Virus record (IMG/VR): IMGVR_UViG_3300025009_000287
Location: 1-34,478 of that record
Source: a virus
Length of the DNA: 34,478 nucleotides
Direction: 5' to 3' (one strand)
Numbering within the stretch: position 1 is the stretch's first letter; each line of letters starts with the position of its first letter. Of this stretch, positions 2,753-34,478 are shown one piece after another. The notes below the pieces were generated by a model, which ran no database searches, was not told the origin of the DNA, and worked only from the letters and a program-made list of their open reading frames with translations. A program made the translations under genes and the position numbers.

Positions 2753-2781
2753 ATGGTTTTTTTTTGTGATATTCTTATGGC

Positions 2782-3141
2782 ATGAAAAAGGCGATTCTTT
2801 TAATTTTGATATTTCCGGGGTTGATTTGGGCCGGGCATCTTCACCCGGAAAAATGGTATCAGGATAAATGGTGTGCCGAACAGAGCGGCCAGGCTGAGGT
2901 GATTTTACCGGATCAAACCCGGTGTGATTGCATCACGGTAGCGAATGCCGTTGAGGTGGATTTCGCCCGAAAATGGTATGAGGCGGTAGGGCAGGCCCTT
3001 TATTATTCGATGCTGACCGGGAAGCGGGCTGGAATTCTTCTTATAATTGAAGACCCTGGCGATCTGAAATATTGGGACCGGATGAACGAGACTATCCGAC
3101 ATTTCGGGCTTCCGGTGGATTGCTGGAAAACTGAACCCTAA
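2782..3141 (+). CDS. Secreted small protein with PD-(D/E)XK nuclease-like features
   Basis: 119 residues. Residues 1-17 are a Sec signal peptide (MKK, then a hydrophobic run ending LIWA), so the mature protein would be periplasmic or secreted. The core (E39, D49, E58, D60, then ARKWYEAVGQALYYS and a TGKRAGILLIIE strand) matches a family of small phage and bacterial proteins with a reduced PD-(D/E)XK-like fold. The usual E-x-K reads E-V-D here, with K64 nearby, so catalysis is uncertain. It is a lone plus-strand gene between two leftward operons. No Shine-Dalgarno precedes the ATG. An extended -10-like TGTGATATT ends 8 bases before the ATG, so the message may be leaderless. A cargo (moron) gene is likely. 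Confidence 0.65.
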   Translation: MKKAILLILIFPGLIWAGHLHPEKWYQDKWCAEQSGQAEVILPDQTRCDCITVANAVEVDFARKWYEAVGQALYYSMLTGKRAGILLIIEDPGDLKYWDRMNETIRHFGLPVDCWKTEP

Positions 3142-3206
3142 TTAATCACACCCACATGAAGGGCTCAGCGAACCGTCACAGCATTTTGCTCGGCCATTTT
3201 CACATC

Positions 3207-3533
3207 CTAAAGAGAAGGAGATTTGTTCTCCACCATCGCCCCCAATGTCCTGGGTTGGCCACCTCCCCACTCAAGAGGGGAATGGGAAGTCTGAGGAAAC
3301 AATTCTAAATGAGTACCATCAGGTACGGGCAGCACAAAAGCTTGCAGATTATCGCGCACGCAGGCATTGGATAGCGCAGCAAAGAATGCAAGAGACGTAC
3401 GGGCGTCTATTAAAAACGAGTTATCTGATAATCGCCGCACGCCTTTTGGAAGGTTTTGACTTCCTATGGCGCTGTTCAGCAAGTTGTATCCGCTTTGTTT
3501 CCCGAGATCGACGATGATCAATAGGTTGTCCAT
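3207..3533 (-). CDS. Hypothetical small protein, last gene of the repressor/cargo operon
   Basis: 108 residues starting MDNLLIIVDLG, with AGGGAC upstream of the ATG at 3531-3533. It starts 11 bases after the Sel1 gene stop, so it is probably in the same transcript. The central part (LLNSAIGSQNL, RRLSDNSFLIDARTSLAFFAAL, LQAFVLPVPDG) reads like a compact alpha/beta phage protein; the last 30 residues are proline- and glycine-rich and probably unstructured. I do not recognise a family. The opposing ORF at 3245-3517 is taken as its shadow because this frame has the ribosome-binding site and operon context. Confidence 0.65.
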   Translation of the reverse strand: MDNLLIIVDLGKQSGYNLLNSAIGSQNLPKGVRRLSDNSFLIDARTSLAFFAALSNACVRDNLQAFVLPVPDGTHLELFPQTSHSPLEWGGGQPRTLGAMVENKSPSL

Positions 3534-3544
3534 AGCTGGTCCCT

Positions 3545-4453
3545 TTAATTATTAAATTTTGCCCACCACTCTTCGGCTTCTTTTTGTGCTGCATCTATTT
3601 CCACGGACGTCATTCTTGCTGATATTTCCTTGAGAAACTCTCCGGCTTTATCAGAAATGGTTTTGTCATTCCCTGCAATTGCGATACTTAACCACTTATA
3701 GCCTGCTACGGTGTTTATCGGCTCTCCGCCGACCCCATAGGAATAAAAAAGCCCGGTCATCATCTGCGCTTTGGTATTTTTTCTTTCTGCTGCCTTCTTG
3801 TACCACTGGAAGGCAAGGGTTTCGTTTTTGTCCACCCCTTGCCCATCGAAAAACATCTCTCCAATTCTGCACTGAGAAAAAGACTCCCCTTGTGCGGCGG
3901 CTTTTTCGTGCCAATAAAAAGAAAGCTTATAATTAACGGGAATCCCCTGCCCATGATAATACATGTCTCCTAATGCCGCTTGAGCATGGATTGTTCCGGC
4001 CTCAGCAGCCTTTTTAAACCACCTGAATGCCTCCTTATAGTTCTCCGGCATATCGGATTTTCCGACCGAATATATCAACCCTATTTCATACGAGGAGAAC
4101 GCATCTCCCTGGTTCGCAGCCTTCTCAAACCATTTTATTGCTTTTTTATTATCCGCCTGAACTCCAACACCCCTGGTGTAGAGAGATCCAATAGAATATT
4201 GGCAACATACGTCGCCTTCTTTGGCGCATCTTTCAAAAACCTTAAAAACTCTCGCCTTATCTTCGGAAAGGATCACTCCATATTCCTTATAATCGTCACA
4301 AAGCTCTTTCAGTGCTTCGAGATCACCCTTTTCAGACTTAAGAAGTTTTTCGTCATAAAACCTCACCATTTTTTGAGAGATGGTTTCGTCTGCGTGAGCC
4401 AAAAAAACGACGCCTATAAAAACAGCGATGATGATCAATATTGTTTTTTTCAT
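3545..4453 (-). CDS. Secreted Sel1-repeat (SLR) protein
   Basis: 302 residues. Residues 1-21 form a signal peptide (MKKT, hydrophobic run, AHA before D22). From about residue 55 to 275 there are roughly six tandem 36-residue Sel1/HcpA-type repeats with the A-x-x-W-F/Y-x-K-A-A and G-x-x-Y-x-x-G-x-G consensus (KAIKWFEKAANQG, EAFRWFKKAAEAG, LAFQWYKKAAE). Such solenoids mediate protein-protein contacts and in bacteria are often envelope or host-interaction proteins. The start overlaps the stop of the upstream gene (ATGA), so it is coupled to the repressor operon and probably expressed in the lysogen. It is a candidate lysogenic-conversion or exclusion factor; the target is unknown. Confidence 0.88.
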   Translation of the reverse strand: MKKTILIIIAVFIGVVFLAHADETISQKMVRFYDEKLLKSEKGDLEALKELCDDYKEYGVILSEDKARVFKVFERCAKEGDVCCQYSIGSLYTRGVGVQADNKKAIKWFEKAANQGDAFSSYEIGLIYSVGKSDMPENYKEAFRWFKKAAEAGTIHAQAALGDMYYHGQGIPVNYKLSFYWHEKAAAQGESFSQCRIGEMFFDGQGVDKNETLAFQWYKKAAERKNTKAQMMTGLFYSYGVGGEPINTVAGYKWLSIAIAGNDKTISDKAGEFLKEISARMTSVEIDAAQKEAEEWWAKFNN

Positions 4454-4779
4454 CCCACATAATCCTTTCTATACAGTTTTCGGTGGAAGTTGCCCGAGGC
4501 GACCAATAAAAATTTTTTAAGCATGGGGCGATCATCTATGTTATCCAATATTTCATGCATGACCACCGTGTCTTTGTTAATTTTTTCGATTAAACATATG
4601 AACGAATACTCTGCCAGGGAGTATGAGTGCCATAAGGGCAAACCGGTTTTGAAAACCTTATCAATTGCCGCCATGGCGGGTACCGCAGTTGCTGGAGGGA
4701 AAAACCGATACAGGGGAAGGCACATGATGTCATCCCTGTTAAAGTTCAACATGTCGGTTTGGTTTGAATCTATCAGCAT
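4450..4779 (-). CDS. Small protein resembling a single PAS-type domain
   Basis: 109 residues with AGGGA upstream of the ATG at 4777-4779; the stop overlaps the Sel1 gene start. The order of segments (IDSNQTDMLNFNRDDIMC, LPLYRFFPP, AAIDKVFKTGLPLWHSYSL, then strands ending TVVMHEILDN) looks like a PAS fold of the kind ending in E-I-x-D-N, with no output domain attached. If correct it would be a stand-alone sensor or interaction module. It lies between the phage repressor and the secreted Sel1 protein in one apparent transcript, so it is probably lysogen-expressed cargo. The PAS call is by eye and tentative; the gene itself is well supported by coupling. Confidence 0.6.
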   Translation of the reverse strand: MLIDSNQTDMLNFNRDDIMCLPLYRFFPPATAVPAMAAIDKVFKTGLPLWHSYSLAEYSFICLIEKINKDTVVMHEILDNIDDRPMLKKFLLVASGNFHRKLYRKDYVG

Positions 4780-4811
4780 ATGGTCCCTGTTAAAGAAATG
4801 AATGTAATAGT

Positions 4812-4845
4812 CCGGGCGTAGCGGTATTCTTGACGATACGCCCGG
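4812..4845 (-). terminator. Strong hairpin just downstream of the repressor gene
   Basis: CCGGGCGTA and TACGCCCGG form a perfect 9-bp stem with a 16-nt loop, directly after the repressor stop on the minus strand. No U-run follows, so it may be a leaky terminator or an mRNA processing or stabilising element between the repressor and cargo genes rather than a full stop. Confidence 0.5.
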
Positions 4846-4847
4846 TG

Positions 4848-5534
4848 CTATTCCCCCAATGTGCCATTGGCCTGATTTGTTCCCTGGTTCTTTCGTCTTT
4901 CGTCCAACCTGAATTTTATAAAATTTATTACTGCATCAATTTCCTTGGGATCTATCTTGTCAAGCTCAACTGCTAATGAATTTAAAGCAAGGGCTTGTTC
5001 CGGGTTCGAAAACTCATTGACCTTTTGATAATGCTTTACTTTTATAGGGTTTTGATAATCGATAATGTTGGATTGTTGGCTATGTCCCGTCTCTTTCCCC
5101 TGATCAAAAAAAACGGGTTGCCCCTTTATTTCCATTGCCGTCGAGTAGGCGACAGAGGATAAGAGGTCACGAAGCTCCTGTTTTGTCATAGAAACGATAT
5201 TAATCTTGGATGCCTTAAGTGCCTCTCGGTCTTTCTTTGTGAAAGGCCTCTCGTCTTCCATTTTTTCAAGCTCGCCTTCTTCTATAAAAGCCTCTAATTT
5301 TTCATATCCACAAGCTTTGGCTATCTTTGACTGTGTCTCAAAAGTGGCTTTGGTTTTCTCGTTTAGGATTTTGCTTAAATGTCCTTGAGTTATACCCGCC
5401 TTTTTGGCGAGACTGGCCGCCTTCTTGTACCAATTAGCCCTCACTTCTCCCCTGAGGGTGATTAAAAAATAATCATATCGTTCATCTTCAGACATAGATG
5501 ATTTTATAACCACGATGAATAATTCTTGCAACAT
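4848..5534 (-). CDS. CI-like phage repressor (XRE-type helix-turn-helix)
   Basis: 228 residues. A helix-turn-helix spans about 38-70 (SLAKKAGITQGHLSKIL); its recognition segment GITQGHLSK nearly equals GVTQGFLSK of the divergent cro-like protein, so both should read the same operators. The rest is charged and helical, probably oligomerisation; I see no S24 LexA-type peptidase Ser-Lys dyad, so it is not an obvious RecA-cleavable repressor. The start at 5532-5534 has AAGGA upstream; the internal Met near 5495 lacks a ribosome-binding site. One operator-like palindrome overlaps its own start region. It heads an operon with the PAS-like and Sel1 cargo genes. Confidence 0.82.
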   Translation of the reverse strand: MLQELFIVVIKSSMSEDERYDYFLITLRGEVRANWYKKAASLAKKAGITQGHLSKILNEKTKATFETQSKIAKACGYEKLEAFIEEGELEKMEDERPFTKKDREALKASKINIVSMTKQELRDLLSSVAYSTAMEIKGQPVFFDQGKETGHSQQSNIIDYQNPIKVKHYQKVNEFSNPEQALALNSLAVELDKIDPKEIDAVINFIKFRLDERRKNQGTNQANGTLGE

Positions 5535-5589
5535 GAATAAAATATTCCTTTAATGAATTTTAATATTGACATATGAATTTAATATTCAT
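5533..5589. promoter_or_regulatory. Three operator-like palindromes between repressor and cro-like genes
   Basis: Three related sites of the form ATGAAT-N5/6-ATTC: 5533-5549 (ATGAATAAAATATTCCT), 5553-5570 (imperfect, 6-base spacer), and 5573-5589, where ATGAAT and ATTCAT are perfect inverted arms around TTAAT. The third lies between the -35 and -10 of the rightward promoter, the first over the repressor start codon. This is the arrangement expected for a CI/Cro switch. Confidence 0.75.
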
Positions 5590-5594
5590 ATGAT
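5566..5594 (+). promoter_or_regulatory. Rightward early promoter (PR-like)
   Basis: TTGACA at 5566-5571 and TATGAT at 5589-5594 with exactly 17 bp between them. Transcription should begin near 5600-5602, at the cro-like ATG, implying a leaderless message. An operator palindrome fills the spacer. Confidence 0.85.
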
Positions 5595-5601
5595 GCATTC
5601 C

Positions 5602-5823
5602 ATGAAAAACACAAGAATCACACAAGCACAAATAGCAAAGCGAAGCGGGGTAACCCAGGGCTTTTTGAGTAAGTACCTGTCCGGGAAGGCTGACCCTTCC
5701 GTGAAAACCTTAAAAAGGATTTCGAAAGCGACCGGGATAAAAATTTCGGATCTTATCGAGTTATCCCCTGACGAACTTAAAAAAGCATTCAAATTTTTAG
5801 AAATCGAGAAGGAAGTCGCATAG
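5602..5823 (+). CDS. Cro-like helix-turn-helix regulator
   Basis: 73 residues from the ATG at 5602. A longer reading from a TTG at 5566 is rejected because that TTG is part of the promoter -35 box. The helix-turn-helix is at about residues 8-45 (ITQAQIAKRSGVTQGFLSKY), followed by a SVKTLKRISKATGIKISDLI segment typical of XRE/Cro proteins. It is divergent from the repressor with operators between, so it should be the lytic antagonist. No Shine-Dalgarno is present; the ATG lies 7 bases after the -10 box, so translation is probably from a leaderless mRNA, as known for lambda cI from PRM. It is the first gene of the rightward early operon. Confidence 0.82.
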   Translation: MKNTRITQAQIAKRSGVTQGFLSKYLSGKADPSVKTLKRISKATGIKISDLIELSPDELKKAFKFLEIEKEVA

Positions 5824-7547: not shown

Positions 7548-8402
7548 ATGAACCGTGGTTATGTAAAGCTCTGGCGCAAGTCCATAGATGATCCTTTTTT
7601 CAAAAACTCATCTATCTGGCATTTTTGGGGTTATTGCCTTTTAAAAGCATCCCATAAAACATCTGACTGCTTTATTAATGGCTCATTCATTAAAATCGGA
7701 AAAGGGCAGTTTGTTTTTGGAAGGAAAATCGCATCAGTTGAAACCGGCCTATCGGAACAGCAAATCAGGACATGTTTAAAACATTTAGAAAAAAGCAAAA
7801 ATCTAACCATCCATACAACCAACAGATTTTCAATCATATCTATAATAAATTGGGACAGTTATCAAGATGAAGAGTGTGATATCAACCAACCATCTAACCA
7901 GCAATCAACCAGCAATCAACCAGCAATCAACCACATACAAACACTTATAAACACTTATAAGAATAAAGAAGATGTTATTAACATAACATCTTTGTCAAGT
8001 TGCGGTGAAAATCCATCCGAATTAAAACTCAATAATTCTTCAGAAATTAAAGAGATTTTCCAATATTGGAAAACCACCCTTGATCATCCGAAAGCCAGAA
8101 TAGACGAAAAGAGAAAGATTAAAATAAGATCAGCCCTAAAAAGTGGCTATTCCGTTGATGATATTAAGCTGGCAATCGATGGTTGCCTTGCATCCCCATA
8201 TCACCAAGGAGAGAACACACAGAGTGTAATTTATGACAGCCTTGAATTAATCTGCCGTGATTCTGAGCATATCGACCGGTTTATAAAACTTTCCAAAGAA
8301 CCGAATGCAAAACTTTTATCTGCAAAGGGCAGGCAGGCAAGACAAAACGGTCAAACATGGCTGCAAATGAGACAACAAAAAAGAGAGGCCCAAAATGGAT
8401 GA
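7548..8402 (+). CDS. Replication initiator, lambda O-like (winged-helix N-terminus)
   Basis: 284 residues; AGGG lies about 10 nt before the ATG. The N-terminal 110 residues (RGYVKLWRKSIDDPFF, IWHFWGYCLLKASHK, a GRKIASVETGLSEQQIRTCL helix-turn-helix) are the winged-helix domain of phage O/DnaD-type initiators. A glutamine/asparagine/serine-rich linker at about 113-130 is encoded by tandem repeats that probably are the origin iterons. The C-terminal part (KSGYSVDDIKLAIDGCLASPYHQ) is the helical segment seen in DnaD/replisome-organiser proteins. It overlaps the next gene by 8 bases, which should supply the helicase-loader partner. Confidence 0.82.
   Translation: MNRGYVKLWRKSIDDPFFKNSSIWHFWGYCLLKASHKTSDCFINGSFIKIGKGQFVFGRKIASVETGLSEQQIRTCLKHLEKSKNLTIHTTNRFSIISIINWDSYQDEECDINQPSNQQSTSNQPAINHIQTLINTYKNKEDVINITSLSSCGENPSELKLNNSSEIKEIFQYWKTTLDHPKARIDEKRKIKIRSALKSGYSVDDIKLAIDGCLASPYHQGENTQSVIYDSLELICRDSEHIDRFIKLSKEPNAKLLSAKGRQARQNGQTWLQMRQQKREAQNG
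7897..7992. other. Candidate replication origin: iterons, AT-rich repeats and palindrome
   Basis: Three tandem 11-bp iterons ACCAGCAATCA (7897-7907, 7908-7918, 7919-7929) are followed by two 10-bp AAACACTTAT repeats (7939-7948, 7949-7958), an AT-rich stretch, and a perfect 10-bp-arm palindrome AAGATGTTAT/ATAACATCTT with a TAAC loop (7969-7992). All lie inside the initiator gene, as lambda ori lies inside O. Confidence 0.75.
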
Positions 8403-9051
8403 AAAAAACGAACTAAAATTTCAGAATCTTTTTTCAACAATAGCTGAAATGTATGACAAAACTCCTTCTTCTTTCCTTTTTGAGCTTTGGTTTACCGCTC
8501 TAAACAGATTCGATATTGAAGCGATTGACCGAGCTTTTTCTATCCATGTCCAAGATCCGGATAATGGAAAATTTATGCCGAAGCCGGCCGATATCATCCG
8601 GATTATTGAGGGCACTACAAAAGACAGCGCCTATAATGCCTGGGCGATGGTAGATAAAGCGATCGGCCGGGTTGGGTCTTATGAGTCGGTTGTTTTTGAC
8701 AATCCAATTATCCATCGGGTTATACAGGATATGGGCGGATGGATAAAGATATGTGGAACAGAAGAGAAAGAAAAACCTTTTATCTCTGCCGAATTTATCA
8801 ACAGGTACAAAGGGTTTAAATCTTCCGGGGAAATCCCTGAATATCCTAAAAAACTCATCGGGCTTATTGAGGGTGAAAATAGTTCGAAAGGATTTTATGA
8901 CCATATTCCTGAACCTGTTTTGATTGGGGATATCGGGAAAGCAAGAGAGGTTTTAAGGCTTGGAACGAACAGGCCATCTTTGATGATATCGAGAGATTCA
9001 GAATCAAAACAGATAGAAATAAAGCCGTTTTTAAAAGTTATAAAAGGATAA
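8395..9051 (+). CDS. Helicase-loader / lambda P-like replication partner
   Basis: 218 residues, overlapping the initiator gene by 8 bases. The N-terminal 75 residues form helices ending in KFMPKPADIIRIIEG, typical of phage proteins found next to O-like initiators. The centre (AWAMVDKAIGRVG, then SVVFDNPIIHRVIQDMGGW and later FINRYKGF) is a conserved phage block. No Walker A motif is present, so it is not a DnaC-type ATPase but could recruit the host DnaB helicase as lambda P does. Position is the strongest evidence for function; family recognition is moderate. Confidence 0.65.
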   Translation: MDEKNELKFQNLFSTIAEMYDKTPSSFLFELWFTALNRFDIEAIDRAFSIHVQDPDNGKFMPKPADIIRIIEGTTKDSAYNAWAMVDKAIGRVGSYESVVFDNPIIHRVIQDMGGWIKICGTEEKEKPFISAEFINRYKGFKSSGEIPEYPKKLIGLIEGENSSKGFYDHIPEPVLIGDIGKAREVLRLGTNRPSLMISRDSESKQIEIKPFLKVIKG

Positions 9052-15314: not shown

Positions 15315-16805
15315 ATGGCAATGATCGAATTTAAAAACAATGCACAGCTTGACACAGAAGAGGCCGCAAGGCTTGCTGTGGAGAAAGAAGCCCGTGACCG
15401 CCAGACAAGACCTGTTATAACGGGCTTATCATCATACTTGATGGGATTGTGGGAAGCTGCAAAAGATGCGAAAGACCCTATCGAAACAATTTTGATTGAA
15501 TCTCTCCGGCAACTCAGGGGGGAATACGATCCTGATAAACAGGCAGAGATAACGGCATCCGGCGCACCGGAGACTTTTATGATGCTGACGGACGAAAAAT
15601 GCAGCGCAGTTTCATCCTGGATAAACGATATTCTGTTCCCGGGGGGGGACAAACCTTGGGGAATAAAACCAACACCTGTACCCGACCTGAATCCAGCCCA
15701 GGCTGAACAAATAAAAGGGTCAGTCCTCATGGAAATGCAGAACACGGTCAGGTATGAGCTGCTTGTATCAATGCAGTCCGGTCAAATTACTGATCAGGCC
15801 CAGGCACAACAGTTTGTCCTTCAGGCTCTTGAGTCCAGGGCGCAAGAGGTTGCCCATGAAATCAGAGAAGGAATGGAGGCCGCAGCAAAAGAAGCCCGTG
15901 ACCGGATAGAAATTAAACTCCACGATGTCGTTCTTGAAGCAGGATGGGAAGATGCAGTTTCAGAAGCGATTGATGATATTGTCACATTCAAGGCCGGGAT
16001 TGTAAAAGGTCCGGTTCTGAGAAAAAAGAAGCGGCTGAAATGGAATACAGTAGCACCAGACTCTGAAACAGACCAGGGCTATCAACCCAACAGACCAGCG
16101 GCAATCGTTTCGGACGAAGTGAGCATAGATTTCAATCGTGTTTCCCCTTTCGATGTTTATCCATTACCGAATTCTAAAACTCCTCAAGATGGGATGATAG
16201 AGCGGCACCGGTTATCCAGGAAATATTTGACATCCCTGATCGGAGTTAAAGGGTTTGATGATGAGGCTATCCGTCTTGTGTTGCAAGATTATGGCAGTGG
16301 CGGTGGAGGGTCATGGCTGTTGGTATCAATTGATACTCTCAGACAGAAACTTGAGGATCGCCCGGACGAGTGGCGGTCGCCTGAACAAAATATAGACGCC
16401 CTACAATTTTGGGTGAATGTCCAGGGTTTACTATTGCTCCATTACGGCATGAGCCCGGAGGATATCCAAGACCCGTTCGCTGATTATCCCGTGGAGGCAT
16501 GGCTTATCGGTCGGTATGTGATAAAAGCTGAGGTCAACGGTGATCCGCTTGGTCGAGTTCCATACAATTTTGCCAGTTTCAGGAAAAGGCCTGGGTCAAT
16601 ATGGGGGTCAGGAGTGCCGGAAATTATCCGGGATTCCCAGTCTGCCTGCAATGCGTCCGCAAGAGCGATTATCGCAAACATGGGTATTTCTTCAGGCCCG
16701 CAGGTGATGGTTGATCAATCACAGTTACCCCCAGGCGCAAGGGTGACGTCCCTCTATCCCTGGAAAGTACCGGAATCTTGCATTCGGTGGATCTTCTTCA
16801 AATAG
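15315..16805 (+). pseudogene. Portal protein, N-terminal part (split by a frameshift)
   Basis: 496 residues before a premature TAG. Sequence features (LMGLWEAAKDAK, ASGAPETFMMLTDEKCSAV, RVSPFDVYPLPNS, LGRVPYNFASFRKRPGSIWG, ANMGISSGPQVMVD) are those of P22-like podovirus portals, the dodecameric DNA gate between head and tail. The protein should continue into the +1 frame: joined to the next ORF it would be about 714 residues, close to P22 gp1 (725). The frame must change between 16747 and 16803; the best match is just after TSLYPWK (near 16764). A run of eight G at about 15640 is in frame. Either a real inactivating mutation, a sequence error or a recoding site. Confidence 0.82.
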
Positions 16806-16833
16806 GCCAGTTGATTTCTTTGTCCCGCCGTCT

Positions 16834-17457
16834 GTGGCTGGTGAGCTGATCCAGGTATATCAGTTTTTCTCAAATGAGGCTGATAACAAAACAGGCGTCC
16901 CAAAGTATTCATATGGTGGGGAGGCCAAAGGCGGTGCGCTTGACACGGCAACCGGGTTCACGACAATGATGAGCAATGCTACCCGTGGGATCAAACGGGT
17001 AATCAAAAATATAGACAAAGGGATTATCGAGCCCAGTATTGTTCGGACCCATGAGTTTCAACTCCTTATGTTCAACGATCCGGAATATTCTCAAGGAGAC
17101 ATCAAGATTATCGCCAAGGGCTCAACGGCTATGGTTGCAAAAGAGCAGTCAGCGTTAAGGCGCAATGAGTTACTTGGTATCGTGACAAACAGACCGGCCA
17201 TTCTGGATATTATCGGAAAGACCGGGCTGGCGTCTATGTTAAGAGAGATTTTTGCGCTAGCTGATTTTAAAGATGATGATATTGTTCCTGATAAAAAAAC
17301 GATGGCCATGCGTGCGCAGCAAGAGCAGCAAATGCTTCTTGATCAACAGGCCATGGGAGCAAAAGAAGATAGACCCGATACCGGGAAAAAGAAACTCGAT
17401 CAGAAAACCGACGCTGCCGGGAATAAGGCTGGTGGTGCGGATGTGAGGGTGGCGTAA
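16834..17457 (+). pseudogene. Portal protein, C-terminal part
   Basis: The frame is open back to 16747, and residues before the nominal GTG start (S-S-S-N-R-P-V-D-F-F-V-P-P) are clearly still portal sequence, so this is not an independent gene start. It continues with VAGELIQVYQFFSNEADNKT, then TGFTTMMSNATRGIKRVIKN (helices of the portal stem/wing) and ends with a charged Gln-rich tail like other podovirus portals. No ribosome-binding site precedes 16834. It needs a +1 shift from the preceding ORF to be expressed as a functional portal. Confidence 0.8.
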
Positions 17458-17459
17458 CG

Positions 17460-17924
17460 ATGACAACCATAGCCTATAAAGACGGAATAATCGCTTATGA
17501 CAGCCGGATTGTCCAGGGAATAACAATTTGCGATGATGATTTTGAGAAGTGCATTTTTAAAGACGGATTCTTTTTCTTCTTGTCCGGGCCCACCTGTGAT
17601 TATGAAAAATTCATGAATCATTTTATAAACAACCGTGATGAATCTAATCTGCCGGTTGAAGGGGTCGGGGCTTTTGTTTATGATAAAAAATTAGGGGCAC
17701 TATACCAAGTCCAGAACAGTGAAAACAGCTTTTGGTATGTCAGAATGGAAACGGCAAAGATCTGTTCCATCGGTTCAGGATCAGACCATGCCATCACTGC
17801 AATGGATATGGGCGCTTCCGCAGAGGCCGCTATTAAAATGGCTATGAAACGGGACACATGCACGGGGGGAAGGATTAGAACCTTTAAAATTTTTGGGTAT
17901 GGCCTTCAAGAAAATCCGCAATAA
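17460..17924 (+). CDS. HslV-like Ntn-hydrolase (threonine protease), candidate prohead protease
   Basis: 154 residues starting M-T-T-I-A-Y, so removal of Met would expose an N-terminal Thr nucleophile. Relative to HslV (T1, D17, K33) the residues T2, D14 in AYDSR and K30 in DFEKCIFKDG line up, and IGSGSDHAITAMDMGASAEA followed by A-I-K-M-A matches the HslV/proteasome GSG motif and following helix. Such hydrolases form ring-shaped compartments. It sits between portal and scaffold, where prohead maturation proteases usually lie, and no S14, S49 or U35 protease gene is seen in the head module. Removal of scaffold or trimming of coat is therefore the likely job. It starts 2 bases after the portal stop. 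Confidence 0.8.
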   Translation: MTTIAYKDGIIAYDSRIVQGITICDDDFEKCIFKDGFFFFLSGPTCDYEKFMNHFINNRDESNLPVEGVGAFVYDKKLGALYQVQNSENSFWYVRMETAKICSIGSGSDHAITAMDMGASAEAAIKMAMKRDTCTGGRIRTFKIFGYGLQENPQ

Positions 17925-17951
17925 TGAATAAAAAAAGGGGGATGCATAAAA

Positions 17952-18071
17952 ATGCCTGAATACAAATGCCATATAGATAAAGAGCAGTTCCCATGGGAAA
18001 CCAGGGTGTTTATTACGAAACCATCCAGTAACAGATATTACGAGAGGATGAAAAGTTATGCTCATAGATAA
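17952..18071 (+). CDS. Small hypothetical protein (39 residues)
   Basis: Starts M-P-E-Y-K-C-H-I-D-K and ends with KPSSNRYYERMKSYAHR; a GGGGG run lies 12 nt upstream. It overlaps the next gene by 14 bases. Basic, no family recognised; plausible because it fills the gap between two head-region genes in operon spacing. Confidence 0.45.
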   Translation: MPEYKCHIDKEQFPWETRVFITKPSSNRYYERMKSYAHR

Positions 18072-18471
18072 AGAAACCACGCTCGGAGATCTGAACCGGA
18101 TCGACCGTGACAATTTCAATCACATCGACAGCCACCACGGGAAGATTTATAGTTTTACGACGATTGAGTCTGCTTTAAAATTTGTGGGGCATTGTGTCGA
18201 TACCGCTATGCGTAAAAGCGGTATCAAGATCAGACCCGGCATGACCCCTGAAAGAATTGAGCGGATGTGCAGGTCAAGAGAGGTCAGGGTTGAAGAGCGG
18301 GATTACGGTCCAGATGAAGAACTTTATCTTTCCGGATTGTTCATCTATGACAAAAAAGAAATATCAGCTTTCGCATCACGGCCTTTTTACAGAAAGTCAG
18401 AGCTGTCTATGATCCCTCAATTCTATGTACGGACAACTGTTAAATGGAGTACCTCAGATGAAACAAATTGA
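18058..18471 (+). CDS. Hypothetical head-region protein
   Basis: 137 residues starting MLIDKETTLGDLNRIDRDNF; GAGG lies upstream. Mixed alpha/beta with an RPGMTPERIERMCRSREV helix and a LYLSGLFIYDKKEISAF strand pair; no signal, membrane segment or known motif. Located in the late operon between protease and scaffold genes. I do not recognise a family. Confidence 0.65.
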   Translation: MLIDKETTLGDLNRIDRDNFNHIDSHHGKIYSFTTIESALKFVGHCVDTAMRKSGIKIRPGMTPERIERMCRSREVRVEERDYGPDEELYLSGLFIYDKKEISAFASRPFYRKSELSMIPQFYVRTTVKWSTSDETN

Positions 18472-18745
18472 TTCAAACAATCAAAAAGACAAGATGGCAT
18501 TGAGCTCTATTCTGGCCTTACGAATCAACAAAGATTTTGAAAGTTATATGGAGTTCATCGGCAGGCAATTGTCCGATATAAGAGAGACCAATGATCACGC
18601 TACCGGCCAGCAGCGTGACTGGAATCAGGGTTGGTGTCAGGCATTCCAGTATATCCTTAACCTTCCAGGGTTGGCCGAAACCTTGCGTAGACAAGAAATC
18701 GACGCCCAAAGAGCCCCGGAATTTATCAGTCAAAAGCGTTTTTAA
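18458..18745 (+). CDS. Hypothetical head-region protein
   Basis: 95 residues from the ATG at 18458, preferred over an upstream ATG at 18425 because GGAG lies 9 nt before it. Helical throughout (ILALRINKDFESYMEFIGRQ; WNQGWCQAFQYILNLPGL). Phage small proteins of this helical type with a W-x-x-G-W/x-x-x-A pattern occur in podovirus head modules, function unknown. It overlaps the previous gene by 14 bases. Confidence 0.6.
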   Translation: MKQIDSNNQKDKMALSSILALRINKDFESYMEFIGRQLSDIRETNDHATGQQRDWNQGWCQAFQYILNLPGLAETLRRQEIDAQRAPEFISQKRF

Positions 18746-18924: not shown

Positions 18925-19875
18925 ATGAACGATTTTATCCCGGTAGCAGTCCAGAGGGCCGGAGAATTATCCGACACCCTCCAAAAAGAATTAACCGACC
19001 CAAAGCCCAAGGATATTCCCCAAACGGAACCCAAGGACACTTTGCCGCCAAATTTTCCTGGTGATCTACCATCATCCCCACCCACAGAGACAGACACTTC
19101 TGATTACAAGGCTAAATACTTATCGCTTCAGGGCAAATACAATGCTGAGGTGCCAAAGCTGACCATGGAAATCAGGAACCTAAAATCGCAGGTGGTTTCA
19201 CTTGAAGAGCAAGTTTCCACATTATTAATCAATAAAAATCAAAATGCGGAAAAAGGTGAGGTCTTAAACAAAGAGCAGTTCGAACAGTACGGCAAGGAAT
19301 TCGGGTCCCTGGTAGATGAAATCCAGCAGCTTAAAAAACAGAATGCTGATTTTTCCGCTCAGATTGATTCACTTCAATCGGCACCGAAAGGGACAAATAA
19401 TCACGAAGCATATATGAACGGAGTAATTGACGCCATTGCAAGACTCGGCGCAAACTTCGATATTATGAACATCGATCCGGTTTTTATCGGATGGCTGAAA
19501 CAGGTTCCCCCAGGTGATTATGAAGACAGGCATGCCAAACTTAAAAGAGCTGAAGCAGCAATGGACCTCCCCGCTACCGTTGAGATTTTTAAAACATATT
19601 TAGGCCAGATTCAACCGCCAGCACAGGACAGTGGTGGTCCAACTCTTGGAAAGAAGCCAGCGGCCAACATACCAAATATTCAGCCGCCCCATACATTGAC
19701 TGGTTCGGATGTCAATCCAAATGCGTCAGGGGACAAGAAGGTTTGGAGCCGGGCCGAGATTCTGAAGTTTCACACAGATCAAACGGCAGGCGTATACAGA
19801 GGTCGGGAAGCTGAGGTCGCAGAAATAGACGCTAAAATTTTTGCAGCAGCGAGAGAAGGAAGAGTCAGTGCCTGA
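18925..19875 (+). CDS. Scaffolding protein
   Basis: 316 residues with AAGGA upstream. A proline-rich acidic N-terminus (about 25-60) is followed by a long coiled coil (about 70-155, heptads in KLTMEIRNLKSQVVSLEEQV and EIQQLKKQNADFSAQIDSL), a helical middle and a C-terminal basic/helical tail (WSRAEILKFHTDQTAGVYRG) likely to bind coat. Layout and position directly before the coat gene are typical of podovirus scaffolds, which template prohead assembly and leave or are degraded. The HslV-like protease upstream is a candidate degrader. Confidence 0.82.
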   Translation: MNDFIPVAVQRAGELSDTLQKELTDPKPKDIPQTEPKDTLPPNFPGDLPSSPPTETDTSDYKAKYLSLQGKYNAEVPKLTMEIRNLKSQVVSLEEQVSTLLINKNQNAEKGEVLNKEQFEQYGKEFGSLVDEIQQLKKQNADFSAQIDSLQSAPKGTNNHEAYMNGVIDAIARLGANFDIMNIDPVFIGWLKQVPPGDYEDRHAKLKRAEAAMDLPATVEIFKTYLGQIQPPAQDSGGPTLGKKPAANIPNIQPPHTLTGSDVNPNASGDKKVWSRAEILKFHTDQTAGVYRGREAEVAEIDAKIFAAAREGRVSA

Positions 19876-19893: not shown

Positions 19894-20844
19894 ATGGCTT
19901 ATCCAATTGACGCCGGGTTAGGCGATTATAAATTAGCAAATGGACTTTCCGGGACATATATCCCGGAAATATGGAGCGGAAAGCTCCTTGTAAAATTTTA
20001 CGCAGCAACCGTGTTCGGGGCAATAGCAAACACCGATTATGAGGGTGAAATCACAGCCCACGGAGATAAAGTCATTATCCGGACCATTCCTGATATGACA
20101 ATCAGGGATTATGAAATCGGTGCTGGCTTACAGTACGAAAGACCAACCGCCAGCAAAGTTGAACTCTTAATTGATAAGGGTAAATATTTTGGTGTGTCCA
20201 TCAATGATGTCGAGAAAAAACAATCCGATATCAATTATGTCAACAGATGGGCTGAAGACGGATCAGAGCAGATGAAAATCTCGATTGATACCGGTATCCT
20301 CGCCGCCATCCCTGCTTCAGCAGGGACATACAACTATGGAACCACAGCCGGTAAAATTTCGGGTAATATCAGCCTCGGTACCACTGCGGCCGATGGGTCA
20401 GCCGCTATCGCTTTATCAAAAACAACCATCGTGGATAAGATGATTGAATGTGGTCAGGTCCTGACAGAGCAGAATATTCCGGAAACCAATCGATGGTTTG
20501 TTGTTCCGGCCTGGGCGTCTACAAGAATCAAGATCTCTGAATTGTCCGAAGTCAGTTTCTCTGGGGATGGCGTGTCCATGAAGCGGAATGGTAGGATCGG
20601 TGTCATTGACAATTTCGAAATCTATGTTTCCAACAACGTCCTGAGCACGACCGAGGGAGCCGTTAAATGTTTCAGCCTTCTGTTCGGGCACAAATCTGCC
20701 CTGACCTTTGCAAGCCAGTTGGTTGAGAACGAAACCATCCCGAACCCGAATGACTTCGGCAAGCTGATGCGTGGCCTTCAGGTGTATGGATACAAAGTGA
20801 TCAAAGATACTGCGATGGGCCACTTGTACGGGAAAGCAGCATAG
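19894..20844 (+). CDS. Major capsid (coat) protein, HK97 fold
   Basis: 316 residues with a strong AGGAGG. The start MAYPIDAGLGDYKLANGLSG, the RTIPDMTIRDYEIGAGLQYE strand block, the spine-helix region, NRWFVVPAWASTRIKI and the C-terminal FGHKSALTFASQLVENE match tailed-phage coat proteins of the HK97 fold common in podoviruses. It directly follows scaffold and is followed by a strong hairpin at 20861-20893. Expected to be the most abundant virion protein. No obvious N-terminal delta domain, consistent with use of a separate scaffold. Confidence 0.9.
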   Translation: MAYPIDAGLGDYKLANGLSGTYIPEIWSGKLLVKFYAATVFGAIANTDYEGEITAHGDKVIIRTIPDMTIRDYEIGAGLQYERPTASKVELLIDKGKYFGVSINDVEKKQSDINYVNRWAEDGSEQMKISIDTGILAAIPASAGTYNYGTTAGKISGNISLGTTAADGSAAIALSKTTIVDKMIECGQVLTEQNIPETNRWFVVPAWASTRIKISELSEVSFSGDGVSMKRNGRIGVIDNFEIYVSNNVLSTTEGAVKCFSLLFGHKSALTFASQLVENETIPNPNDFGKLMRGLQVYGYKVIKDTAMGHLYGKAA

Positions 20845-30034: not shown

Positions 30035-33000
30035 ATGAGTTTTTTTCTTGGTAATCCCATTTCCGGTACGCCTGATTTTGAAGATGCTCCAGATATCGCT
30101 TCTGAGCAGACAGGGCTAAGTAATAATTTTATCCTTGGCAAACCTATTAATGGAACTCCAGACTTTGAAGAAGAGAAAGGGGATTTTATCCCAGGAATAA
30201 AGAGAGGGATTGATCAAACTCAGGCCAGTCTATACGGTGCAACAGCTCTTGTCGGGTCAGCGGTTGGTTCTGAATCTGTGAAAAAATGGGGTATGGAAGG
30301 ATATAAAAGGAACATGGCAGAGGCACAAGAGAACCCTGCCGAACATTCCTTTAAAGACGTTTATACCGGTAATGCCGGAATAGGCGGTTCGATAATAGGC
30401 GGTTCGATAGATTGGGCTCAAGGGATGTTTGGCGAACTTATCCCGTCTATGGTTGAGGCCGCAATCGGTACGATAATTGGAACCATTGTTGCCCCAGGAC
30501 CAGGCTCAGTAGCCGGAGGGTTCGCAAGCCGGACTATTTTGAAAAAATCGATTGAGAATATCACGAAAGAGGCCGTTGAGTCTCAGATTTCTAAGGGCAT
30601 CATAAAGGAAGCCGCTCGATCAGTGGCAGAAGAAGAGATCAAAAAACAAGTTACCAAACAGGCTTTACTGAAACTCGGAGGGAAGGTTGGTATGGGTGCT
30701 GCCGTACTGCCATTAGAATCGGGTGGTAATTATGCCCAACTGCTTGATGAAAAGGGGATAGATGCCCCCGGAACGGCCTTGTTCTTTGGAGCCCTATCGA
30801 CATCCCTTGAATACGCAGGAGGAAACAGCAAACTCGTCGATAAATTCATTGATGCCATTGGAAGCGGTGGGTCGGCTGTAAAATCAGCAGCAAAAGAGTT
30901 AATCACGAATATACCTGAAGAAGCATTGCAAGAGGGAGGGCAGGAAGTATTCAGTATTTTAAATACGGTCGTGAACACAGACGAGAAATTACTGACGGCC
31001 AAGAATCTTGAACAGATAATTGAATCAATGGGAGCGGGTGCGATTGGTGGCCTTGGTGGTGCAAGCTTGTCAATAGGGATGGATGCGATATCTAAAGACA
31101 AACCCACCAATCTCCTTGACAAAACAAAAGGCTTTTCCGGGGAAACCGTGACTGATCAGCCCGAACCATCTGAAAAAGCAATGGATGATTTCCAATCAGG
31201 GATTGCAACATCGCCTGTGGATCAATATTCCGACACCATACCGTTTGCAGGTGTTCCGAATGAAGAAGAACTCGGATGGATGGATGAAATCAACCGGCAG
31301 AGGAATCCGTCTCAGCAGGCACCGCCGCCGTCATCACCTCCACCGGATATGGTTCAAGACCGGTATGCAGAGAATCAGCAGGCCATGGCCGGAATCGAAT
31401 CAGAACCGGATTATTCCATTACAAAATCCGGGATCAATGAAAGCAAAAACCTTCTTGAAAAAAACATTGATACCCTGAAAAGAGTACAGAGTCGGGAAAG
31501 AAGTGTTTCCGCTCTTGGAGAACGTCAGCAGGCGATGGGTCAATCCGGAATGTATGAATTCCAGCGGGGGCTTGAAGCACAACCGGAAGAACCAACCGGG
31601 AAATATTTACCTTTTGCCAGGCTCGGTGACATGCTCGGAAAGAACGAATATCCGCAGGCTATTAATCCTGTTAGGAATCCTGCCACTGTCAATATGGAGC
31701 AAGGGACACCTGAATATATTGATCCACAGGTCAGGCGACCACAAACAAACCGGGTCACTGTCAATATGGAGCAAGCCCCTGTGACTGTTCAGCCGGAAGA
31801 AACTGCAATGCAGGGAGTCAATCCGGTATTTGAGCATGAGGTTGAGCCTGATAAAATAAATACCAATCCGAGTGAAGCCCAGAAAGAGGCCGGAAATTAT
31901 CAAAAAGATCATATCAAAATCGATGGACTGAATATCACCATTGAAAATCCTCACGGGTCCACAAGAAAAGGGACTGATAAATCCGGCAAGCAATGGGAAT
32001 CAACCATGTCCGGTCATTATGGTTATTTCAAAAGGACCGAAGGAAAGGATGGGGACCAGGTTGATGTTATCGTGAACCCAGGTACAGAGACAAGCCCGAA
32101 GGTTTTTGTTGTTGACCAGGTAGATCCGAAATCCGGAAAGTTTGATGAACATAAAGTTATCATGGGCACCAGCTCAGAACGGGAAGCCCGAGATCTTTAT
32201 TTGTCCAATTATGAAGAAGGTTGGCAGGGCCTTGGTGCGATCACTGAAATGAATCAGCCTGTATTTAAGGAATGGCTGAAGGATGGGGAACGGACGAAGA
32301 AACCGCTTGCCGTGTCGCTTCAAGGAAGCGTGCCTGTTGTCGATAAGTCAGCAGATCTTTCCCCAGGCCAGGCCGTAACCTGGAAGACCAAAAAAGGCGA
32401 GGAATTAAAAGGCGAACTGATCATAAAGACAAAGAATATGTGGCAGGTTAAAAAGCCGGATGGGGAAAAGACCTTTGTTTTGGATAAGGATTTGTCCCTG
32501 AATGTCTCTGAAAATGTCCCTGTCGAAACCACTCAAAAAGAAGACCAGGCCATAAAGAAATTCGTTGATTCTTTCCTTGAATCAGAAATTGCAGCCGGTA
32601 AAAAACGAGGATATGCCGAAGCCACCCAGGAACAGATTGACAAATTCAGGGCATACCAGACCGAACGAACCAAGGCTTTTGCAGAATCAATCCGCAATAA
32701 AGATTTCCAGGTATTGCAAGACAGGCTTCACCGAGGGAATCCAAGCTCCTTAAAGCTTTTTTCCGAGATCACTGGCCTGTCAACCAAGACGCAAAAAGAG
32801 ACTGATGAAAGTATCAGGTCCCTTGATTCGGTCAAATATGACCAATGGGTAAAAGACAAAAAGCAAAAATTTGATGATACCGTCAAAGAGAAGGAAGCCG
32901 CCAGGAAAGAAAAGGCAGAAAAAGACATGCTTTCCCGTGAAGTCGTTTATCTTGGGGGAAGGATGACCTGGGAGAAGTATATCAATGCCCTTCTGGAAGG

Positions 33001-34478
33001 TGGTTATACCGATGTTGATAAAAAAGAGAACGGTCCTTTTCAGTCATTGAAGCTTTTGAAAAATAGTCCGGATGGTCGGACGTTCAGCAGCGAGACATTC
33101 AAGAAGAAGGCCGAGATCGAATATATTGAAAGGCTGGCGGATCAGTATTCTGAGAAAGCGATTGCCGAGGATATTGCCAAAGAAGAAAAGGACATGGCCG
33201 AGAATCCGGACAAGTATACTTCCAAAGAAGACCTTGATCATCTTTTCGGTAAGAATGGCAAAAGTGATACTTTGCCGAAAGAAGACAAAAAAAGCATAAC
33301 AGATTTTTTTCTTACCGCATTCCGGTCCGGGAAAGGTTTCGCCAATATCCTTCAGGCCAGAAAAGCCCTTGCGGATGAAACCGGATTTATCATCAAGGCC
33401 GGTACCCAGGATGCCAAGATGGTGGATGAAGCCATCGAGACAGCCGGGGTCCGTGCAGCCAGGGCAATCATAGACGACGGCAGAAAACACAATGGGTCAT
33501 CTGAACAGATATTTGATAAGCTCGTTGACCTGCAAAACCGGATGCCGAATCTTTCTGTCAGAACTTCAACATCCGTCAGGGATCAGGCATATTCTACTCC
33601 TTTACCTTTGGCATGGGTGGCGTCTGAACTGGCCGGGATCACGTCAGACAAAACTGTTTATGAACCGTCTGCCGGGAACGGAGCTTTGCTCATCGGGTCA
33701 AATCCCGAGAAGGTAACGGCCAATGAATTGAATCCGGATAGGCATAATACCTTGCTTGAAATGGGATTCGATACATATAATGCAGATGGGACTCAAATAT
33801 CAGCCGGTGGAAAGGTAGATGCCGTCATCGGCAATCCTCCCTTCGGTGTTGTCAAAGACGATGCCGGAGTCTCAAAAACCTGGAAAATAAACGATCAATA
33901 TTCCACGACTCAGATTGACCATGCCATTGTTTTTAAGGCCCTGGAATCAATGAAAGATAATGGCCGTGCGGTCTTCATCGTCGGCAGCGTGAATGATAAA
34001 AACATTACTCCGGAAGCCAGAAAGCTTTTATACCGAGCAAAAGACAAGGTTTTGTTTTACAAAACCCTATTTGACAATTATAATGTAGTTGACCACTTTT
34101 CATTGTCAGGCGATCTTTATGCAAAGCAGGGGGCGGCCTGGCCGGTTGATTTCATAGCGATTGATGGGAAGGGGAAATCAAAGCTTGCACTTCCCGGAGC
34201 GGTTCCCCCACCCTATTTTAAAACACTGGAAGAACTGAAAGGAAAACTTGATGGAAAGACCACAGAAAGACCTGATAGCCTGGGCACCTCCCGAGGAGAG
34301 CTCGGCGCAATGGATAGCGGCGGTATGGCTCCCGAAGGGGGAGACCCTGACGCCAAGTTACCACAGGCACCTGATGATAGACCTGGTTCAGAACCTGATA
34401 AACAAAGCGGAAGATCCCCAGGAAGCGGCAAAGATGCTGGAAAAGGCCCTGGGGAACGCCGACCTGTTACCGGACGGG
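30035..34478 (+). CDS. Giant polyvalent protein: hydrophobic N-terminus, InPase-like domain and N6-adenine methyltransferase (cut by right edge)
   Basis: The frame is open from the ATG at 30035 (AAAGGA upstream) to the window end, at least 1481 residues. Residues 1-50 hold a duplicated FLGNPISGTPDFE motif; 90-370 are Gly/Ala-rich hydrophobic helices, probably for envelope passage. Residues about 615-750 (HIKIDGLNITIENPHGSTRK, YGYFKRTEGKDGDQVDVIVN, VFVVDQVDPKSGKFDEHKVI) are the pyrophosphatase-like domain of phage polyvalent proteins. Residues about 1174-1360 are an N6-adenine methyltransferase: motif I EPSAGNGALL at 1210-1219 and catalytic NPPFG at 1267-1271. A Gly/Pro linker follows; a helicase usually comes next. 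Such proteins are packaged and injected to protect phage DNA, as in P1 DarB. Confidence 0.85.
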   Translation, partial: MSFFLGNPISGTPDFEDAPDIASEQTGLSNNFILGKPINGTPDFEEEKGDFIPGIKRGIDQTQASLYGATALVGSAVGSESVKKWGMEGYKRNMAEAQENPAEHSFKDVYTGNAGIGGSIIGGSIDWAQGMFGELIPSMVEAAIGTIIGTIVAPGPGSVAGGFASRTILKKSIENITKEAVESQISKGIIKEAARSVAEEEIKKQVTKQALLKLGGKVGMGAAVLPLESGGNYAQLLDEKGIDAPGTALFFGALSTSLEYAGGNSKLVDKFIDAIGSGGSAVKSAAKELITNIPEEALQEGGQEVFSILNTVVNTDEKLLTAKNLEQIIESMGAGAIGGLGGASLSIGMDAISKDKPTNLLDKTKGFSGETVTDQPEPSEKAMDDFQSGIATSPVDQYSDTIPFAGVPNEEELGWMDEINRQRNPSQQAPPPSSPPPDMVQDRYAENQQAMAGIESEPDYSITKSGINESKNLLEKNIDTLKRVQSRERSVSALGERQQAMGQSGMYEFQRGLEAQPEEPTGKYLPFARLGDMLGKNEYPQAINPVRNPATVNMEQGTPEYIDPQVRRPQTNRVTVNMEQAPVTVQPEETAMQGVNPVFEHEVEPDKINTNPSEAQKEAGNYQKDHIKIDGLNITIENPHGSTRKGTDKSGKQWESTMSGHYGYFKRTEGKDGDQVDVIVNPGTETSPKVFVVDQVDPKSGKFDEHKVIMGTSSEREARDLYLSNYEEGWQGLGAITEMNQPVFKEWLKDGERTKKPLAVSLQGSVPVVDKSADLSPGQAVTWKTKKGEELKGELIIKTKNMWQVKKPDGEKTFVLDKDLSLNVSENVPVETTQKEDQAIKKFVDSFLESEIAAGKKRGYAEATQEQIDKFRAYQTERTKAFAESIRNKDFQVLQDRLHRGNPSSLKLFSEITGLSTKTQKETDESIRSLDSVKYDQWVKDKKQKFDDTVKEKEAARKEKAEKDMLSREVVYLGGRMTWEKYINALLEGGYTDVDKKENGPFQSLKLLKNSPDGRTFSSETFKKKAEIEYIERLADQYSEKAIAEDIAKEEKDMAENPDKYTSKEDLDHLFGKNGKSDTLPKEDKKSITDFFLTAFRSGKGFANILQARKALADETGFIIKAGTQDAKMVDEAIETAGVRAARAIIDDGRKHNGSSEQIFDKLVDLQNRMPNLSVRTSTSVRDQAYSTPLPLAWVASELAGITSDKTVYEPSAGNGALLIGSNPEKVTANELNPDRHNTLLEMGFDTYNADGTQISAGGKVDAVIGNPPFGVVKDDAGVSKTWKINDQYSTTQIDHAIVFKALESMKDNGRAVFIVGSVNDKNITPEARKLLYRAKDKVLFYKTLFDNYNVVDHFSLSGDLYAKQGAAWPVDFIAIDGKGKSKLALPGAVPPPYFKTLEELKGKLDGKTTERPDSLGTSRGELGAMDSGGMAPEGGDPDAKLPQAPDDRPGSEPDKQSGRSPGSGKDAGKGPGERRPVTGR
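30380..30409 (+). repeat. Perfect 15-bp tandem duplication in the polyvalent gene
   Basis: ATAGGCGGTTCGATA occurs twice back to back (30380-30394, 30395-30409), in frame, encoding G-I-G-G-S-I-I-G-G-S-I. A recent slippage duplication in the hydrophobic N-terminal region. Confidence 0.8.
31684..31775 (+). repeat. 20-bp direct repeat in the polyvalent gene linker
   Basis: CACTGTCAATATGGAGCAAG is present at 31684-31703 and 31756-31775, 72 bp apart and in the same frame (encoding T-V-N-M-E-Q). It marks two copies of a short linear motif in the disordered linker before the InPase-like domain. Confidence 0.75.

Follow-up and report, generated by a model that had tools for sequence, protein, structure and literature searches.

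A small gene in a phage head operon raises the question of what a proteasome-like threonine peptidase does for a virus. The gene lies at positions 17460-17924 (+) of IMG/VR virus record IMGVR_UViG_3300025009_000287, which we analysed as one whole stretch of 34,478 nucleotides (hereafter, the window). An initial annotation, made from the sequence alone, read the product as an HslV/proteasome-type threonine protease and suggested that it may process the capsid. Here we ask what the product is, whether the capsid is likely to be its substrate and which role fits it best.

The window encodes a member of the PPH family

The ORF at 17460-17924 (+) encodes a protein of 154 residues with the N-terminus MTTIAYKDG (MTTIAYKDGIIAYDSR). 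This product matches PHROG 1040 ('peptidase HslV family') with an E-value of 4.8e-36. Its match to the Pfam Proteasome model (E = 0.0017) is under the cut-off; 25 of 36 PPH homologs match the same model at E ≤0.01. Using the window protein as a tblastn query, we identified homologs in 268 phage records. Relatives are present in at least 295 IMG/VR contigs, and bacterial genomes, mostly of Pseudomonas, also carry homologs. The median dN/dS across 401 pairs of homologs is 0.10, indicating strong purifying selection; together with the PHROG match, this value rules out a chance ORF. We also rejected a dead enzyme, since the catalytic residues are complete in the window protein and the Asp is clearly missing from only one of the 36 aligned homologs (L005). 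A PADLOC scan for known defence-system proteins returned nothing.

The PPH family was described in 2021 and published with its function unknown (PMC8665760). The window protein has the features of the family, namely a length of 154 aa, residues T2, D14, K30 and G43, and the match to PHROG 1040. In this gene and in 19 phage homologs the start codon immediately precedes Thr-Thr, with no propeptide. Searching the window with a PPH query, we detected no second proteasome-like gene. Our analyses confirm that the window ORF is a real, intact-looking member of an already known family.

Active site and predicted fold are of the proteasome type

The predicted nucleophile is Thr2 (codon 17463-17465; all codons given here are on the + strand), which would become Thr1 once Met is removed, and which is invariant in the 36 homologs and in the 19 phage homologs found by tblastn. 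Asp14 (17499-17501), the equivalent of proteasome Asp17, is conserved in at least 90% of homologs, being replaced by Glu in Vibrio phage 1.085.O and by Tyr in L005. Lys30 (17547-17549) is invariant and aligns to the Lys of proteasome beta5, where it corresponds to Lys33, and the invariant Gly43 (17586-17588) corresponds to the oxyanion Gly47. The IGSGSDHA motif spans residues 104-111; within it, Ser106 (17775-17777), the equivalent of proteasome Ser129, is nearly invariant, and its GSGS sequence aligns to the GSGS of beta5. Residues Asp132 to Thr135 (17853-17864), in the motif RDTCTGG, correspond to proteasome Asp166 and Ser169 and align to RDAYSGG of beta5. Ten residues are invariant among the 36 aligned homologs (Thr2, Thr3, Lys30, Gly43, Gly105, Gly107, Asp132, Thr135, Gly136 and Gly137), a set that is biased at the N-terminus because MTTIAYKD was among its search patterns. 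All 19 phage PPHs from the unbiased tblastn search start with M/V/L-T-T. The L005 gene (8001-8432), which has AYYGR at the catalytic Asp position, may encode an inactive protein or reflect a sequencing variant.

An AlphaFold2 model of the window protein, built with the 36 homologs as input, has a mean pLDDT of 89 and a pTM of 0.84. Among the PDB matches listed by Foldseek for this model, 20S proteasome beta subunits rank best (E about 2e-9, query-normalised TM about 0.69); the list also includes the bacterial homolog BPH. A profile of the PPH family finds proteasome beta5 chains with an E-value of 1.4e-8, aligning Thr2 with Thr1, Asp14 with Asp17, Lys30 with Lys33, GSGS with GSGS, and RDxxTGG with RDAYSGG. 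By DSSP, the model has a single helix (48-57) between strands 37-42 and 70-75, at the place of proteasome helices H1 and H2, and its final element is a strand (139-143). Relative to proteasome beta subunits, H2 is missing and H3 is shortened, with part of it missing. Absence of H2 has been described for PPH, and absence of H1-H2 for connectase (PMC8665760).

The residues singled out in the initial annotation (Met-Thr-Thr at the N-terminus, an Asp, a Lys and IGSGSDHA) are thus those recovered here, and the predicted fold, the profile and the Foldseek matches agree with its assignment to the Ntn hydrolases. Sequence comparison and model together show the window PPH to be a predicted Ntn hydrolase whose active site has the full set of proteasome-type residues.

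PPH occupies a variable slot in the head operon

All genes of the head operon described here are on the + strand. An 11-bp gap, located after about position 16768, divides the portal gene (15315-17457) into two frames; both halves match phrog_332/phrog_1216, and the gene aligns to the intact 717-aa portal of the closest relative, L090. The gap relative to L090 is either an assembly error or a real defect. PPH starts 2 bp past the portal stop, within a 600-bp slot (17458-18057). Two ORFs of unknown function that are conserved in close relatives (18058-18471 and 18425-18745) separate it from a gene for a scaffold-like coiled-coil protein (18925-19875; phrog_13678), which precedes the coat gene and is colinear with the L090 scaffold. 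The coat gene itself, encoding the major capsid protein, lies at 19894-20844 (phrog_267, E = 2.8e-53). The placement of PPH between portal and scaffold is therefore as originally described. So is the lack of a further protease in the head module: we found none among the 20 window ORFs scanned. A gene at the far end of the window (30035-34477), truncated where the record stops, encodes 1481 aa or more and gives antirestriction (DarB-like) and methyltransferase matches.

Related phages build the same head without PPH

We searched related IMG/VR contigs by tblastn with the head genes of the window. The order TerL, portal, ORF 18058, ORF 18425, scaffold, coat is the same in relatives without PPH, with coat identity of up to 87%. 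All 11 relatives that share the portal-scaffold-coat module lack PPH in the slot between portal and ORF 18058. The slot is closed in seven of these relatives (-4 to 69 bp from the portal stop to the next gene) and is filled by other small ORFs in the remaining four (609-877 bp; ORFs read in L090, L174 and L179). A profile search of whole records identified PPH in 3 of 26, never in a slot of the window type, although most of the records are fragments and PPH could lie elsewhere in those genomes. Of the three positive relatives, L097 and L169 have PPH close to where TerL begins. For the closest relative, the profile search covered a 57-kb record and found no PPH anywhere in it.

Coat and scaffold of the window are colinear from residue 1 with those of PPH-lacking relatives, the N-terminus of the major capsid protein included, and these alignments revealed no extra propeptide in either protein; therefore, no propeptide awaits a protease. 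We detected no S78 protease in 21 relatives and no S77 protease in the relatives searched, which suggests that a head of the window type simply needs no protease of the S78 or S77 kind. We infer from the sister phages that PPH would likewise be needless for building this head.

The head genes of the relatives also carry insertions. In L090, a group I intron (8095-8447; Rfam RF00028, 88 bits) lies within the major capsid gene. In L179, an intein-like insert (2770-5709) is present in the portal ORF, and the coat gene is interrupted by a LAGLIDADG-like ORF (8163-9050), whose insertion site is that of the L090 intron or close to it.

PPH is mobile and is often found upstream of terminase

The authors who defined the family considered the genomic context of PPH not informative (PMC8665760). 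Among 20 annotated phages, we placed PPH in the head/neck module in four, near lysis/terminase genes in seven and in replication/metabolism regions in seven, with two unplaced; the regions that hold it in other phages include those for lysis, replication, and nucleotide or NAD metabolism. In VpV262, PPH and the structural genes are on opposite strands. Of the 80 IMG/VR loci nearest to the window PPH, a sample in which close relatives are over-represented and few lineages are covered, 72 have a terminase large subunit gene within 2.5 kb downstream. This arrangement occurs in at least four terminase lineages. Within one lineage, L064 and L069 have PPH upstream of TerL, whereas L009 has it between the portal gene and scaffold-like genes; PPH moves yet remains in the late region.

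Several PPH carriers have a separate head-protease gene. KPP10 gp001, which adjoins the coat gene, matches three head-maturation-protease PHROGs; gp277 of phapecoctavirus Schickermooser, which adjoins the portal gene, carries a Peptidase_S78_2 note; and Rhizobium phage TM21B has a Peptidase_S77. The label 'DNA methyltransferase' looks wrong for the first two of these genes (L264 2-418 for KPP10 gp001, near coat; L267 8492-8971 for Schickermooser, near portal). Jumbo phage JN03 (genus Seoulvirus) encodes PPH, and SPN3US presumably belongs to the same genus. For SPN3US, two reports describe a dedicated essential protease, gp245 (PMC7411985, PMC10052503).

Alternative explanations

Could PPH be the capsid maturation protease, cleaving scaffold or coat as the prohead matures? 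Its place between portal and scaffold, the lack of a second protease in the head module and its presence among head genes in several unrelated phages all speak for this reading. However, sister phages that share portal, scaffold and coat with the window are without PPH, so the enzyme does not accompany this scaffold and coat everywhere; carriers and non-carriers have colinear coats and scaffolds, with no removable propeptide in the window; PPH often lies far from head genes; and three other phages carry a separate head-protease gene as well as PPH. AH14a, in which PPH lies upstream of terminase, was the only PPH phage for which we found virion proteomics in the literature: sequence coverage of the virion coat protein reached 92%, and the virion proteins named did not include PPH, the particles being tail-less heads (PMC4936722). 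The lack of another head-module protease proves nothing, because relatives without PPH also lack S78 and S77. For S78 and S14, we found no match at Pfam thresholds in 35 PPH-bearing records, a search that missed the KPP10 and Schickermooser candidates. We set aside a mutual exclusion of S78/S14 with PPH, both because the Pfam models overlooked these two candidates and because relatives without PPH are also without S78. Processing of the window capsid by PPH, as suggested in the initial annotation, is not supported, and we regard a maturation role as decidedly improbable. A late packaging or prohead quality-control factor that is not the maturation protease, clearing for example stray scaffold, portal or terminase, is unlikely, though we retain it as an alternative. 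The location of 72 of 80 PPH genes just upstream of terminase, in at least four lineages, hints at such a role and is the best argument for it, and the positions in L064, L069 and L009, all in the late region, are in keeping with it. Against this, accessory genes commonly sit at the boundary between lysis and terminase genes, KPP10, phapecoctaviruses, VpV262 and others have PPH far from the head genes, and the 80 loci are skewed to close relatives and few lineages. A more specific version is slightly less likely again: PPH would be a recurrent packaging-linked late peptidase of phages with scaffold-type heads and no conventional prohead protease, recruited repeatedly to the site just before terminase or to that between portal and scaffold, where it would remove scaffold or failed proheads and thereby let packaging begin.

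Two further readings concern the chemistry and partners of the enzyme. PPH might use its Ntn active site as a specific ligase, transpeptidase or amidohydrolase, like the monomeric homolog connectase. The missing H2 of PPH resembles the absence of H1-H2 in connectase (PMC8665760), a single helix stands at the H1/H2 place in the model, and an H3 shorter than that of proteasome beta makes ring assembly uncertain. Yet the set of active-site residues, including RDxxTGG, is that of the proteasome proteases, and the connectase-type insertion is absent, leaving this reading improbable. The other reading makes PPH a genuine HslV, one that would bind the HslU ATPase of the host and divert the host's proteolysis. 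This reading draws on the PHROG label 'HslV family' and on the fact that hosts commonly encode HslU. It is contradicted by the lack of any HslV model match, with proteasome beta and BPH among the matches listed instead, by the missing H2 and, on the phage side, by the absence of full hslU from 31 records, although the host could supply HslU. We consider it very improbable indeed.

A probable role for PPH as an accessory peptidase

We propose that PPH is probably an accessory, stand-alone threonine peptidase, expressed late and acting on soluble host or phage proteins, and that its gene sits in a variable slot of the head operon as optional cargo. Optional cargo is the most likely status because close relatives make the same head type without PPH. 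Given the 2-bp spacing, PPH would be translated with the late head genes, right behind portal. Host methionine aminopeptidase would then take off Met1, Met-Thr-Thr being a standard N-terminus for removal, and expose the Thr nucleophile. The predicted Ntn fold would carry Thr/Asp/Lys together with Ser/Asp/Thr as a proteasome-type active site. Without an encoded unfoldase, PPH may cut exposed segments of soluble host proteins or surplus phage proteins late in infection, which could give a growth advantage in some hosts. The position of 72 of 80 genes upstream of terminase and of several others among head genes weighs against the cargo reading, as does the lack of S78/S14 from the 35 PPH-bearing records noted above. 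Our analysis adds to the known context of PPH its variable slots, the coexisting head-protease genes, the sister heads without PPH and the strong tendency to precede terminase, and it narrows the question to the substrate in the infected cell.

Comparison with known enzymes

Prohead proteases of the S78, S77, S14 and S49 classes share with the window PPH a gene position in the head module. Their folds are unrelated to it, and they coexist with PPH in other phages.

HslV, the first of the two types named in the initial annotation, is an Ntn threonine protease with a Met-Thr-Thr start, features that it has in common with the window PPH. The two differ in that PPH has no HslV model match, no encoded HslU and no H2. 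An NCBIfam scan to E 10 matched no HslV model and returned only a weak match to archaeal proteasome beta and a match to a podovirus capsid model, and HslV was absent from the 60 chains listed for the profile search and from the 50 matches listed for the fold search that the annotation had called for. A full HslU (TIGR00390 over its cut-off) was found in none of 31 records, the window included, and HslV-like genes without HslU have also been reported in Salmonella jumbo phages (PMC7823757). In JN03 (MT799840.1), the HslU model aligns over its first 65 positions with an 82-aa ORF at 105697-105891 (E = 4.5e-15). Because no record has a full HslU and the best relatives are of the proteasome type, 'HslV' is a loose label for PPH as judged by profile and model comparisons; with no HslV model match and no full HslU in the 31 records, we rejected a true HslV. 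The Ntn-hydrolase part of the original assignment is right, given the model and the matches to 20S beta subunits and BPH.

With the 20S proteasome beta subunits, beta5 in particular, the window PPH shares the Ntn fold, the equivalents of Thr1, Asp17, Lys33, Gly47, Ser129 and Asp166, and the RDxxS/TGG motif. Proteasome Ser169 is replaced by Thr135 in the window PPH, as it is by Thr in close homologs. The beta subunits are about 200 aa long, against 154 aa for PPH, which has no propeptide, no H2 and a shortened H3 in place of the full-length H1-H4. The 20S proteasome also has partner alpha subunits and an AAA+ cap, neither of which was found with the window PPH. The closest likeness is to the PPH family itself, with which the window protein agrees in size, in its Met-Thr start without a propeptide, in the catalytic Thr, Asp and Lys, in the missing H2 and in its distribution among phages, and from which the window gene differs by its place in a podovirus-type head module, after portal and before scaffold.
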